A stretch of DNA of 64,000 nucleotides. Source: Candidatus Cloacimonadota bacterium. Lineage in GTDB: Bacteria > Cloacimonadota > Cloacimonadia > Cloacimonadales > TCS61. The notes under the pieces were generated by a model that was given only the letters and a program-made list of their open reading frames with translations, was not told the DNA's origin and ran no database searches. The stretch lies in the NCBI GenBank assembly GCA_021734835.1, contig JAIPIH010000007.1:1-64000 (forward strand). Direction: 5' to 3'. This document shows positions 18,441 through 23,191 of this stretch, in pieces. The stretch's first letter is position 1, and every line of letters starts with the position of its first letter. The translations under genes were made by a program, and so were the position numbers.

Positions 18441-18515
18441 ATGGAAAAAACATGGAGCAAGGCTACAGATCAGATCTACAATTGTCGTAGATTATCATGT
18501 ATCTTTTTAAAATAA
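18441..18515 (+). CDS. Micro-ORF 1, conserved RRLSCIFL peptide
   Basis: A 24-codon ORF, too short for the ORF track, starts 14 bases after ygfK and ends 33 bases before ygeY. A purine-rich AGAGAAGAA sits in front of the ATG. Its residues 12-23 read IYNCRRLSCIFL and are followed by Lys and TAA. The second micro-ORF at 20892 has IYEMRRLSCIFL and then its stop. In the ten shared codons the four nucleotide differences all fall in synonymous positions, which is strong evidence that both are translated and under selection. The function is unknown. A leader/arrest peptide controlling ygeY or a small accessory protein are both possible. Confidence 0.65.
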   Translation: MEKTWSKATDQIYNCRRLSCIFLK

Positions 18516-18548
18516 ATGATCTGACAAAAATAAATTTAAGGAGATATC

Positions 18549-19757
18549 ATGAAAAATATATATCAAAAAATTAGAGATTTATCGATTAAATATGAAAGCG
18601 ATACTGCCGGATTTCTGGCTGAAATGATCCAAACACCATCTTTTTCCGGTAAAGAAAAAAATATTATCAAGATCATTCATAAGCAAATGAAAAAAGTTGG
18701 CTTTGATAATATCCGGGTTGATGAGCTAGGTAGTATAATTGGGACAATAGGTAATGGTCCCAGAATGATTGCATTCGATGCTCACATTGACACTGTTTAT
18801 CCAGGAAATCTTGATAACTGGGATTTTCCGCCTCATGAAGGCCGTATTGAAAACGGAAAAGTTTGGGGACGTGGAGCATCAGATCAGCTGGGCGGCATGG
18901 CGTCTATGATTTACGCTGGTAAGATCATAAAAGAACTAGGGCTTAATGATCAATTTACAATTTTATTTACCGGTACAGTAATGGAAGAAGATTGCGATGG
19001 AATAGCCTGGGAACACTTGATCCAAGAAGATGGGATAAAACCGGAACTGGTTGTCAGCACAGAACCTACAAGCTTGAATATTTACCGTGGGCATCGTGGA
19101 AGAATGGAAATCACTATCGAAGTTAAAGGGATTTCCTGCCACGGTTCTGCACCGGAAAGAGGTGTAAATGCCATCTATAAAATGGCAAAAATAGTTAATG
19201 AAGTTGAAAAATTGAATGATAGATTAAAAGATGATGATTTTTTAGGAAAAGGTTCTGTTACCATCAGCATCTTTCAGTCAGGATCACCCAGCCAATGCGC
19301 AGTTGCTGATTACGCTAAAATTCAATTAGATCGCCGCCTGACCTGGGGCGAAACGAAAGATTCAGCAATTTTAGAGCTGAAAGACTGCTGCAGCAGAGCC
19401 GGAATTGATGATGCAATTATTAAAGTGCTGAAATATGAGGAACCGGCGTACACAGGGAAAGTTTATCCGGTGGAGAAATATTTTCCTACATGGAAACTTG
19501 ACGAAGGATCACACTGGTTGAAAAGCGCTTCAGCTTCCTATACAAAAACATTAGGTAGAGAAGCTAAAATTGATAAATGGACTTTTAGTACAAATTGCGT
19601 TTTTATCATGGGAAAATATCCTGAGATCAAATGTTTCGGGCTAGGTCCAGGAGACGAAGATCAGGCACACGCTCCCAATGAAATGACAAGAGTATCTGAT
19701 CTGAGTGCAGCGGCTGCTTTCTATGCGGGAATTATCGCACAATTAAATAATAAATAA
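18549..19757 (+). CDS. ygeY: YgeY-family M20 metallo-hydrolase
   Basis: The 402-residue peptidase M20/ArgE-DapE-like hydrolase shows the expected di-zinc residues. These are His/Asp in AFDAHIDTVYPG, Asp in GRGASDQLGG, the catalytic Glu pair in TGTVMEEDCDG and a C-terminal His in DQAHAPNEMTR. YgeY is a constant member of the ssnA-ygfK-ygeW cluster and is proposed to hydrolyse a ureido amino-acid intermediate. The start follows TTAAGGAG. A micro-ORF lies directly upstream and the first carbamoyltransferase begins 16 bases downstream. Confidence 0.86.
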   Translation: MKNIYQKIRDLSIKYESDTAGFLAEMIQTPSFSGKEKNIIKIIHKQMKKVGFDNIRVDELGSIIGTIGNGPRMIAFDAHIDTVYPGNLDNWDFPPHEGRIENGKVWGRGASDQLGGMASMIYAGKIIKELGLNDQFTILFTGTVMEEDCDGIAWEHLIQEDGIKPELVVSTEPTSLNIYRGHRGRMEITIEVKGISCHGSAPERGVNAIYKMAKIVNEVEKLNDRLKDDDFLGKGSVTISIFQSGSPSQCAVADYAKIQLDRRLTWGETKDSAILELKDCCSRAGIDDAIIKVLKYEEPAYTGKVYPVEKYFPTWKLDEGSHWLKSASASYTKTLGREAKIDKWTFSTNCVFIMGKYPEIKCFGLGPGDEDQAHAPNEMTRVSDLSAAAAFYAGIIAQLNNK

Positions 19758-19772
19758 AAAGGAGAATAATAT

Positions 19773-20756
19773 ATGAAAACTGAATTAAGAGGAAAACATT
19801 TTATCACTCTCGAAGATTGGTCGAGAGAAGATGTAGATACACTATTAAGTGTAGCGACAGAATTAAAAAGGCAATTTGCCATGGGATTAAGTACACCTTA
19901 TTTAACAAACAAGACAATGTTCCTGATGTTTTTTGAACAATCAACTCGCACAAGAAATTCAATGGAAGCAGGTATTGCCCAACTTGGCGGTCATGCCAAC
20001 TATTTAGATACAAGTACAATGCAAATTGCACATGGCGAAGTAGTAAAGGATACAGCAATAATTCTTTCCCGTTATGGACATTCAATAGCGTGCCGAAATT
20101 GTTTTTGGGGCATCGGCAATCAATATATGAATGATATGGCAAAATGGGCTACAGTTCCTGTAATAAATATGCAAGACGATATTTATCATCCCCTGCAGGC
20201 TATCGCCGATCTTATGACAATGAAAGAAAAATCCGGGATTATTCGCCGAAAAAAAGTATCGATCATTTGGGCTTATGCAGATACTCATAAAAAACCAATT
20301 TCTGTGCCAGTATCACAAGTCCTTCTTTTCCCCCGCTATGGCATGGATGTCACACTTGCTCATCCTAAGGGTTATGAATTGCCAAAGTGGGTAATCGAAA
20401 AAGCAAAATATAATGCTGAGATAAACGGCGGGACACTCACAATAACTAATGATGAAAAAAAAGCCTATCAAGATGCTGATTATGTAATACCAAAAAACTG
20501 GGGTAATTGGGTTTCAAATTCCGGAAAGGATGTAATTGATGATCTGCTGACTGCTAATAAAAGTTGGAAATGTACTGAGGAAAAAATTGCTCTTGGTAAG
20601 AAAAATGTGAAATATATGCACGCCTTACCTGCTGATCGTAAAAATGAAGTAGAGGATAGTGTAATTGATGGAATTCACTCAATCATCTATGATGAAGCTG
20701 AAAATCGTATTCATACCTCCAAAGCAATAATGCAGCTTACAATGGGCGGAAAATAA
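19773..20756 (+). CDS. ygeW: YgeW-like carbamoyltransferase 1
   Basis: The 327-residue member of the aspartate/ornithine carbamoyltransferase superfamily carries the carbamoyl-phosphate loop STRTR (57-61). Further motifs are 'HGEVVKDTAIILSRYG', 'DDIYHPLQAIADLMTM' and an active-site HALPADR in place of the HCLP of ornithine transcarbamylase. YgeW has the knotted fold, and in purine clusters it is thought to run in the phosphorolytic direction, releasing carbamoyl phosphate from a ureido substrate. It is the shortest of three tandem paralogues. A promoter and a micro-ORF separate it from the next one. Confidence 0.84.
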   Translation: MKTELRGKHFITLEDWSREDVDTLLSVATELKRQFAMGLSTPYLTNKTMFLMFFEQSTRTRNSMEAGIAQLGGHANYLDTSTMQIAHGEVVKDTAIILSRYGHSIACRNCFWGIGNQYMNDMAKWATVPVINMQDDIYHPLQAIADLMTMKEKSGIIRRKKVSIIWAYADTHKKPISVPVSQVLLFPRYGMDVTLAHPKGYELPKWVIEKAKYNAEINGGTLTITNDEKKAYQDADYVIPKNWGNWVSNSGKDVIDDLLTANKSWKCTEEKIALGKKNVKYMHALPADRKNEVEDSVIDGIHSIIYDEAENRIHTSKAIMQLTMGGK

Positions 20757-20830
20757 TTACGCAGTCTGGATCCTGAGAAATTTTTATCTATGACCATTGC
20801 TAAATTAGGATAAAGTTATTAATAATTTTA

Positions 20831-20859
20831 TTGACACAATGAATTGAATTAACGCTAAT
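20831..20859 (+). promoter_or_regulatory. Promoter upstream of micro-ORF 2 and carbamoyltransferase 2
   Basis: TTGACA (20831-20836), an exact 17-base spacer and GCTAAT (20854-20859) sit in the 303-base gap between the first two carbamoyltransferase genes. Transcription would begin near 20866, about 25 bases before micro-ORF 2, making that ORF the first thing translated from this transcript. Confidence 0.5.
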
Positions 20860-20891
20860 TGTGATAGTTAATAAAATTGAGAGGTAAGGAT

Positions 20892-20969
20892 ATGAAAAGT
20901 GAAATTGCAATAGATTTCATGCTGAAACGCATCTACGAGATGCGCAGATTATCCTGTATTTTTCTTTAA
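20892..20969 (+). CDS. Micro-ORF 2, conserved RRLSCIFL peptide
   Basis: A 25-codon ORF with ATG at 20892 is preceded by GAGGTAAGGA, a good ribosome site. It ends 90 bases before carbamoyltransferase 2. Its C-terminal twelve residues, IYEMRRLSCIFL, match micro-ORF 1 except at two central positions, with only synonymous differences elsewhere in the block. The N-terminal halves are unrelated. Its position (own promoter, short leader, then an AU-rich gap before the enzyme gene) is that of a regulatory leader peptide. SpeFL, which senses ornithine, is a precedent for a nascent peptide controlling a metabolic gene. No family is recognised. Confidence 0.7.
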   Translation: MKSEIAIDFMLKRIYEMRRLSCIFL

Positions 20970-21059
20970 TTAACTTCACTATTCAAGCACTTTTAGTTTA
21001 ATTCATCTATAAAATTATTTTATTTTTTGTAATGTTAATACTTATTTAAGGAGATAAAA

Positions 21060-22136
21060 ATGAGAAGTAATAAATTTTTGGGAAGAGATTGGTTAAGTCC
21101 AGAGATCGATTATACAAAAGAAGAATGGGAATCATTAATAAAATTAGCTGAAGAATTGAAGACCAGATATGCCTTAAATGAGGACACCACGCACATCCTC
21201 AAAGGCAAAACTTTATATACTATGTTCTTCAATAGTTCGCTCAGAACCAGAACTACTTTCGCAGCCGGGATCCAACAATTGGGTGGATATCATGTAGATC
21301 TAGAGCCGGGAAAAACATATATGCCGGCAAGAAAAGGGTATGAAATTCCCTACAAAACAGAACGTATTTCAGATGTAGCAAGAGTTCTCAGCAGAACCGG
21401 TGATGCTCTGGCTATCCGCATGTATGGTAAACCTTCACAATGGATCTATGGCTTTGCTCATGAAACTTTAAAAGAATTTGCACAATGGGCTGATATACCG
21501 ATCATTAATATGGAAGATGATATTTATCATCCCTGCCAGGCTTTGGCAGATATGCTGACAATAAAAGAAAAATTAGGTAGCTTTAAAAAGAAAAAATTTG
21601 TGATCAGCTGGGCTTATTCAGGCTCTACCGCTAAACCATTTGCTGTTCCGCAAAGTCTGGCCTTAGCTCCCAGCTTACTAGGCATGGATGTTGTTCTTGC
21701 CCGCCCGAAAGGATTTGAATTGGATCCAGAAGTTACCGAGCAATGTAAAAAATATGCTATCCAAAACGGTAGTTCTTTTGAAGAAACTGATGATATGGAT
21801 GCAGCTTTTGAAGGTGCTCATGTAGTTTATCCTAAATCTTGGGGAGCAATGGATTATTTTGCTCAGATCGATAAGAATGGAAAAAAAATAAAAGAAGAAA
21901 ATCTGGATGGAATGAAAAGTCTTTTTGAGAAGAATAAACACTGGATATGCGATGAGAATAAAATGAAACTAATTGATAAAAACGGGATTTATATGCATTG
22001 TTTACCTGCTGATAGAGATATGGAAGTAACTGATCCTGTTATTGACGGGCCGCAGAGTGTTGTCTTTGATGAAGCAGAAAATCGTCTTCATGCCCAAAAA
22101 GCTATAATGGCATTACTCATGAATGGTAGATTATAA
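21060..22136 (+). CDS. YgeW-like carbamoyltransferase 2
   Basis: The 358-residue protein has carbamoyl-phosphate loop SLRTR (60-64), 'YKTERISDVARVLSRTGDAL', 'DDIYHPCQALADMLTI' and MHCLPADRDMEVTD. It has a longer central loop than paralogue 1 (around 'YMPARKGYEIPYKTE'), as in knotted carbamoyltransferases. The substrate is probably a ureido acid related to that of YgeW. The start follows TTAAGGAG. It has its own upstream promoter and leader micro-ORF, unlike the other two copies. Confidence 0.83.
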   Translation: MRSNKFLGRDWLSPEIDYTKEEWESLIKLAEELKTRYALNEDTTHILKGKTLYTMFFNSSLRTRTTFAAGIQQLGGYHVDLEPGKTYMPARKGYEIPYKTERISDVARVLSRTGDALAIRMYGKPSQWIYGFAHETLKEFAQWADIPIINMEDDIYHPCQALADMLTIKEKLGSFKKKKFVISWAYSGSTAKPFAVPQSLALAPSLLGMDVVLARPKGFELDPEVTEQCKKYAIQNGSSFEETDDMDAAFEGAHVVYPKSWGAMDYFAQIDKNGKKIKEENLDGMKSLFEKNKHWICDENKMKLIDKNGIYMHCLPADRDMEVTDPVIDGPQSVVFDEAENRLHAQKAIMALLMNGRL

Positions 22137-22153
22137 ACTAACAGGAGGAAATT

Positions 22154-23191
22154 ATGCAAATAGATATGATTAAAAAAGATGTTCTTTGCACTCAGGAATT
22201 GAGTGTCGATGAGATAAATGCACTATTGAAACTTGCTAAAGCAATGAAAGCTGAAAGATACAGCCCAAAATACAATCAATTACTCAAAGATAAAACTTTT
22301 TTAATGTTTTTCTTTAATCCTTCCTTGCGAACAAGAATCTCCTTTGAAGCTGCAGCAACGGAACTTGGCGGTCATGCCCAATTTCTCGAACCAAAAACTA
22401 TGCGCTTGAAAAAAACCAGTAAAGGTGTGGAAGTACAAGCCGGAGAAACAATTGAAGATGCTGCTAAAGTACTGGATAGATATGCTTGTGGAATGGGGAT
22501 AAGAATATTAGAGACCTCGGTCGAAAGCTATGGTGATGGAAATGCACTGCTTCGGGAATATGCTAAATGGATGAAAGTTCCTATAGTTAATATGGCAGAT
22601 GACAAATACCATCCATGCCAAGGTCTTTCCGATATGATGGGAATGCAGGAACACAGAGGTGATCTGAAAGGAAAAACCGTGTTAATGACATGGGCTCATG
22701 GCGCATTAGCAAGATCATATTGCTCAGTTCATGAAAACCTCCTGATCTCATCTCGACTGGGAATGAATGTGAAACTGGCTTATCCAAAAGGTTATGATCT
22801 CCCCGAAGAAGAGATCGCTAAAGTGAAAGCAAACTGTAAAGCTAACGGTACAAAATTTGAGATTGTTAACGATCCCGAAAGTGGATATACTGAAGATGTC
22901 GAATTCGTCTATTCACGCAACTGGTTTGGGCCGGATTTTTACGAAATTGGTAAAGAAGCCGAAATAGCCAGAGCGAGTAAAATGACCGAATGGATATGTA
23001 ATCAGGAAAGAATGGATAGAACTAATAATGCACTTTTCGTACATCCCATGCCGGTTGACCGAGGCAAAGAAGTTACAGACGAAGTAGCTAGTGGTCCAAA
23101 TTCGATCATAACTGATATTGCAGAAAACAGGCTGCATACTCAAAAAGCTATCATGGCTATGACAATGGCTGGCTTAAAAGTAGATATTTAA
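22154..23191 (+). CDS. Carbamoyltransferase 3 (ATC/OTC superfamily)
   Basis: This third tandem paralogue has 345 residues. It has SLRTR (57-61), 'VEVQAGETIEDAAKVLDRYA', 'DDKYHPCQGLSDMMGM' and a diverged active-site segment HPMPVDRGKEVTD, where paralogues 1 and 2 keep H(A/C)LPADR. The changed motif and a 'KKTSKGVEVQ' loop suggest a different second substrate. It begins 18 bases after carbamoyltransferase 2 and 20 bases before the carbamate kinase, so it is clearly part of the same transcript. AGGAGG precedes the ATG. Confidence 0.82.
   Translation: MQIDMIKKDVLCTQELSVDEINALLKLAKAMKAERYSPKYNQLLKDKTFLMFFFNPSLRTRISFEAAATELGGHAQFLEPKTMRLKKTSKGVEVQAGETIEDAAKVLDRYACGMGIRILETSVESYGDGNALLREYAKWMKVPIVNMADDKYHPCQGLSDMMGMQEHRGDLKGKTVLMTWAHGALARSYCSVHENLLISSRLGMNVKLAYPKGYDLPEEEIAKVKANCKANGTKFEIVNDPESGYTEDVEFVYSRNWFGPDFYEIGKEAEIARASKMTEWICNQERMDRTNNALFVHPMPVDRGKEVTDEVASGPNSIITDIAENRLHTQKAIMAMTMAGLKVDI

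Follow-up and report, generated by a model that had tools for sequence, protein, structure and literature searches.

A candidate leader-peptide family present twice in a Cloacimonadota operon probably serving uric-acid breakdown

Introduction

SpeFL is an ornithine-sensing arrest leader located before speF in E. coli, and TnaC is a tryptophan-sensing, Rho-dependent arrest leader located before tnaA. Leaders of biosynthetic operons use another mode, codon-supply attenuation. Few metabolite-sensing arrest peptides have, to our knowledge, been shown experimentally, and those few are from well-studied bacteria. In the published mechanism of the tryptophan-sensing leader, Rho acts after tnaC (PMC8429421). 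The E. coli enzymology of uric-acid breakdown assigns the removal of the 2-ureido group to YgeW and that of the 3-ureido group to YgeY, with albizziin as the intermediate between the 2 steps, which together yield 2,3-diaminopropionate (PMC12507026).

We analyzed a window, the whole stretch of 64,000 nt under study, in which a sequence-only reading had pointed out a promoter, a short ORF (micro-ORF 2), and a gap before a carbamoyltransferase gene, and had taken this layout for attenuation or arrest-peptide control of the SpeFL kind. That observation holds and is larger than stated, with a second copy, micro-ORF 1, in the same window. Micro-ORF 2 is a member of an unannotated leader-peptide family, not one isolated ORF.

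Results

The window genome belongs to Cloacimonadota, with named neighbors including Candidatus Tenebribacter davisii, and both micro-ORFs, their leader elements, ygeY, and carbamoyltransferase 2 lie on the forward (+) strand. The first part of the cluster comprises an ssnA-like gene, ygfK, micro-ORF 1, ygeY, carbamoyltransferase 1, and micro-ORF 2, followed by carbamoyltransferases 2 and 3, a carbamate-kinase-like gene, a PALP-fold gene in the place of ygeX, and xanthine-dehydrogenase-like genes; the carbamate-kinase and xanthine-dehydrogenase genes are what we take them to be from reading the translations rather than from a profile search. The ygeY gene (18549-19757) matched the model of the YgeY family selenium metabolism-linked hydrolase (NF009555) with 541 bits at a cut-off of 321. 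Carbamoyltransferase 2 (21060-22136) is AOTC-like, its closest NCBIfam model being N-acetylornithine carbamoyltransferase (292 bits, cut-off 288), and it scored far under the YgeW cut-offs. Three different carbamoyltransferase genes are located at 19773-23191 in this uric-acid-type cluster, and E. coli has 1 (YgeW). The cluster is probably an operon for anaerobic uric-acid breakdown, in which ygeY and the AOTC-like carbamoyltransferase probably represent 2 pathway steps, removing both ureido groups.

Micro-ORF 2 (20892-20969) has 25 codons, with its ATG at 20892 and its TAA at 20967-20969, and encodes the leader peptide MKSEIAIDFMLKRIYEMRRLSCIFL, which matched the family profile with an E-value of 2e-13. 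The strong ribosome site claimed for it was confirmed as GAGAGG at 20879-20884, 7 nt 5' of the ATG, with AGGAGG in this place in most close relatives, and the 35 copies of the family put the ORF itself far beyond chance. Its conserved core codons (20931-20963) encode IYEMRRLSCIF. The gap of 90 bases reported before the carbamoyltransferase gene is also correct, as 20970-21059 comprises exactly 90 nt, is A/T-rich with more C than G, holds no terminator, and ends at the gene ATG at 21060. Micro-ORF 1 (18441-18515; peptide MEKTWSKATDQIYNCRRLSCIFLK; profile match E-value of 3e-13) was found directly after ygfK by searching the genome itself with the 25-residue micro-ORF 2 peptide. Its core codons (18474-18506) encode IYNCRRLSCIF, and the final 8 residues, RRLSCIFL, are identical in the 2 micro-ORFs, with codons that differ synonymously. 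Leaders before ygeY, such as micro-ORF 1, are referred to as type A, and leaders before carbamoyltransferase 2, such as micro-ORF 2, as type B or carbamoyltransferase-type.

Among 125 Cloacimonadota genomes, a profile search identified 35 strong copies, distributed over 31 of them, all with an E-value of 9e-9 or below and with the next best match at 0.003; many of these 35 loci come from related genomes, and the counts are therefore not independent events. The copies come from 3 families (f1, f5, and f13) of one phylum. Every copy was located directly 5' of the AOTC-like carbamoyltransferase 2 or of ygeY, except 1 at a contig end (G018), and the upstream neighbor was usually ygfK or carbamoyltransferase 1. 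Four genomes (G000, G002, G008, and G033) harbored 1 copy of each type in the same operon, with differing N-termini, and the full gene order was repeated in G033. Two copies on separate contigs, each before carbamoyltransferase 2, were identified in G031. The absence of a leader at carbamoyltransferase 2 was judged with G018 and G020 set aside as contig ends; in G117 and G119, close carbamoyltransferase-2 genes had no leader and were located in a different upstream context. Matches to a degenerate DNA pattern were obtained in 9 of 60 relatives and almost none with a reversed control, and the match in G014 was inspected and found not to be a leader. Weak profile matches in family f10 were inspected in 4 genomes and rejected, and the sampled ygeY genes of this family had no leader, with ygeY directly after ssnA (e.g., L092, L093, and L105).

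Further, a search across 84,980 species with IYxxRRLSCIFL, a stricter pattern, recovered 10 loci. Six of them were Cloacimonadota leaders, including 2 in MAGs that carry the label Armatimonadetes/Armatimonadota and have contigs matching genomes placed in the window's family. The other 4 loci had none of the leader features and fit chance, 2 of them being a hairpin in a single Clostridia MAG. At these Clostridia contig ends (L042 and L048), a common strong promoter precedes a hairpin with a T run, and the pattern match is due to chance. Since the pattern demands a final Leu, variants with other endings are still possible in other phyla. No Pfam or NCBIfam family matched either micro-ORF peptide, Rfam gave 0 matches within 8700-30000 of the window, and no relevant paper was found among the matches listed in a literature search for the motif. 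We know of no arrest motif that the IYxxRRLSCIF core resembles.

Selection on the peptide was concentrated in the core. Across the 35 loci, the 9 fixed codons (I, Y, R, R, L, S, C, I, and F) had a pN/pS of 0.047, with 0.50 for the 2 x codons of IYxxRRLSCIF and 0.85 for the 10 codons before the core, and within groups the core ratio was 0.016-0.089 vs. 0.34-0.55 for the N-terminus. The sole core replacement was 1 Arg to His. The N-terminus was variable, as was the tail between Phe and the stop, and with the core ending 0-8 residues before the stop, the conserved C-terminal block lies near the ORF end, as in an arrest peptide. Judged at the sequence level, this combination of a conserved C-terminal block, a loose N-terminus, and a short tail is the pattern expected of a leader whose nascent peptide acts in cis. 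The loci also have further features of leader peptides, namely a short ORF with a ribosome site directly 5' of a gene, purifying selection on the peptide, and constant downstream genes across species. Leader-peptide control is well supported by the conserved core, the exclusive linkage to 2 pathway genes, and the presence of 2 copies in one operon.

The promoter proposed upstream of micro-ORF 2 was recovered at its coordinates, with the -35 box TTGACA at 20831-20836, a 17-nt spacer, and the -10-like box GCTAAT at 20854-20859, which agrees with TATAAT in 4 of 6 positions and lies where AATT is conserved in relatives. As a match alone, it was not above chance; a consensus promoter scan gave 8 promoter-like sites compared with 14.9 in shuffles, and the TTGACA/GCTAAT pair was not among them. 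TTGACA was identified in 25 of 26 type B leaders (the exception being L017, which has none at the expected place), 81-113 nt and mostly 98-105 nt 5' of the core, with flanking A/T bases also conserved. The search for the site relied on TTGACA, so that the invariance of its 6 bases is by construction; the near-constant distance and conserved flanks are independent of that. This conservation across type B loci supports a promoter here. No promoter of their own was seen for ygeY-type leaders, which in several genomes lie closely 3' of ygfK. An inverted repeat, AATTTTATTGAC / GTTAATAAAATT, flanks the promoter at 20824-20835 and 20867-20878, and a similar pair, ACGTGGTT / AACCACGT, was observed in L026 and L028; it is a possible operator.

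We analyzed the predicted folding of the leader RNAs, the gaps, and the ribosome sites downstream. The leader RNA of micro-ORF 2 (20866-20975) is predicted to pair its ribosome site and start codon with the core codons (MFE -29.2 kcal/mol; z -3.99; 0 of 200 shuffles as stable). Across the 26 type B loci, the expected pair count for these two arms was 11.5, vs. 5.1 in synonymous recodings (mean z -2.27), with the start codon taken one codon off at some loci, which shifted the folded segment by 3 bases and kept both arms inside. At 16 type B loci in register, 89 percent of cells pair vs. 41-68 percent in shifted registers. Almost no covariation is present in this pairing because both arms are nearly invariant, and partner shuffling was not significant (0.0855), so that covariation is not established. 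Type A leaders lack the pairing of their own ribosome site with the core codons. Codon choice favors a small hairpin (CGCATCT-ACG-AGATGCG, 20928-20944) in the core-encoding stretch, with a mean z of -2.34 in type A and -1.35 in type B, and hardly so in f13.

An AU stem with a T run had been put forward as an element of the gap. The stem (21009-21023, 7 A/T pairs) folds at chance stability against shuffles (z 0.14 and 0.32) and is not conserved in relatives, and we do not retain it. No intrinsic terminator was found in a scan of the window region, and no conserved structure was found in type B gaps (mean z -0.8), the stems of which differ between lineages; in some copies, the gaps of 22-37 nt before ygeY leave no room for a terminator. 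Folding with and without a ribosome on the micro-ORF 2 core, in line with a check proposed with the sequence-only reading, left the accessibility of the carbamoyltransferase ribosome site unchanged (0.27 vs. 0.28), and the freeing of this site by such a ribosome was rejected. Of the proposed geometry, leader-peptide control is retained and terminator-type attenuation is not supported, with no terminator and a gap fold at chance. C exceeds G in the gap of 21 of 26 type B loci (246 vs. 143 bases), which is only suggestive of Rho action. Long inverted repeats have been inserted between the leader and carbamoyltransferase 2 in L015, L017, L028, and L085, with tandem copies of ~50 nt in L028; these inserts look like small palindromic mobile elements.

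At micro-ORF 1, a hairpin is predicted (18495-18551) between the SCIFLK codons and the ribosome site and start codon of ygeY. The unpaired probability of the ygeY ribosome site was 0.08-0.09 in the free RNA and 0.48 with a ribosome on the micro-ORF 1 core. In synonymous recodings of micro-ORF 1, it was 0.35 on average, and only 4 of 100 recodings covered the site to that extent. Among the other 8 type A loci, the corresponding shift upon placing a ribosome on the core was clearest in L083 and L082, and the covering of the ygeY site was significant by recoding in none of the 8. Some gaps between leader and ygeY have strong predicted RNA structure (z -7.41 in L027 and -3.66 in L018), unlike the window copy.

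Discussion

We consider it probable that the 2 micro-ORFs are copies of one cis-acting leader-peptide element serving 2 steps of uric-acid breakdown through slowing or arrest of the ribosome. The IYxxRRLSCIF core would act in the ribosome exit tunnel and slow or arrest the ribosome at or near the ORF end, probably in dependence on a pathway metabolite, and the ribosome paused on the leader would change the expression of the next gene. At micro-ORF 1, it would melt the predicted hairpin covering the ygeY ribosome site, a route that is likely translational. At micro-ORF 2, it would open the predicted hairpin that masks the ribosome site of the leader itself, and it may prevent Rho from acting on the untranslated gap, in which C exceeds G. 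The net effect that we infer for the pause is most likely that both enzymes are switched on. Ribosome arrest on the leader is plausible, and so is the suggestion of the sequence-only reading that the peptide may sense an amino acid or a ureido intermediate. By the published E. coli enzymology, YgeW and YgeY remove the 2 ureido groups, which makes a ureido amino acid, or else 2,3-diaminopropionate, plausible as the ligand. Only tentatively, and with our judgment leaning against it, we put forward a more specific form, in which a new arrest peptide present twice in one operon would control 2 successive ureido-removing enzymes and sense what they consume or release (2,3-diureidopropionate, albizziin, or 2,3-diaminopropionate), and its core codons would serve as an RNA-switch arm on ribosome sites.

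Translation of the micro-ORF could also act without sensing, simply keeping the downstream RNA open, with the core codons mattering as pairing partners. Such coupling is consistent with the predicted pairing partners of the core codons, which are the leader's own site in type B and the ygeY site at micro-ORF 1, and with a minimum distance of 42-49 nt from core to ATG. However, the core amino acids persist where codons differ synonymously, also at the first position in the case of Arg and Leu, the core is shared by type A leaders, which lack the type B pairing, and the long pairing does not extend to IY and RR; we regard translational coupling by itself as unlikely. Stalling by a scarce charged tRNA for Arg or Cys appears more doubtful still. 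An adjacent Arg codon pair is present in all copies but 1 and a Cys codon in every copy, as codon-supply attenuation would have it, whereas the 9 fixed residues are of 7 kinds without single-residue runs, no terminator or antiterminator was found, and the genes are catabolic, not biosynthetic.

The good ribosome sites and the strongly conserved 11-residue block would equally suit a small protein acting in trans (an enzyme partner) or a secreted or modified peptide (a signal or RiPP precursor). The ORF is, however, invariably directly 5' of either of 2 genes and occurs twice in one operon, its N-terminus and tail are not conserved, and it belongs to no Pfam or NCBIfam family, which leaves a product acting in trans as improbable as stalling by codon supply. 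A chance ORF or pseudogene remnant, to which a length of only 25 codons might point, is refuted by conservation (35 copies, pN/pS 0.047, and a sharp E-value gap), and we give it practically no weight.

The cis-acting leader that we favor represents a candidate family of metabolite-sensing arrest leaders from a phylum that is largely uncultured, in connection with the anaerobic breakdown of uric acid. Its 11-residue motif is directly testable in a cell-free ribosome assay against a few simple ligands, and the 2 copies in one operon offer a natural experiment in which one core is combined with different N-termini and downstream geometry. YgeV is a regulator in E. coli, and the leaders suggest a control mode for a uric-acid cluster in which no YgeV-like neighboring regulator was noticed.

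Compared with known systems, the window cluster is like the yge clusters of E. coli and Clostridioides difficile in having ssnA, ygfK, ygeY, a carbamoyltransferase, a carbamate kinase, and a PALP-fold protein in the YgeX position (PMC12507026). Unlike the E. coli cluster, where no peptide of this kind was seen upstream of ygeW, it has 3 carbamoyltransferases in addition to the leaders. Micro-ORF 1 resembles Erm-type translational attenuators in that a predicted hairpin covers the ribosome site of the next gene and would be opened by a ribosome on the leader; in contrast to them, the covering arm consists of the leader core codons themselves, no drug ligand is implied, and arrest is putative. 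The SpeFL precedent invoked by the sequence-only reading stands as an analogous layout, with a short ORF leading into the gene of an amino-acid catabolic enzyme across about 0.1-0.3 kb (257 nt for speFL vs. 90 nt here), and not as homology, with no match of SpeFL to the family profile (-3.6 bits, E-value of 2.1), another phylum, and another pathway. TnaC shares the leader length of 24-25 residues and the catabolic operon, with a tnaC-tnaA gap of 220 nt; Rho acts after tnaC, and a role of Rho is putative here, where no intrinsic terminator was found. TnaC has no sequence match to the family (-1.0 bits, E-value of 0.32) and is single, whereas the Cloacimonadota leader occurs twice in one operon. 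By layout and published mechanism, TnaC and SpeFL are nearest, and the Cloacimonadota leader, while not homologous to either, may by analogy work alike.
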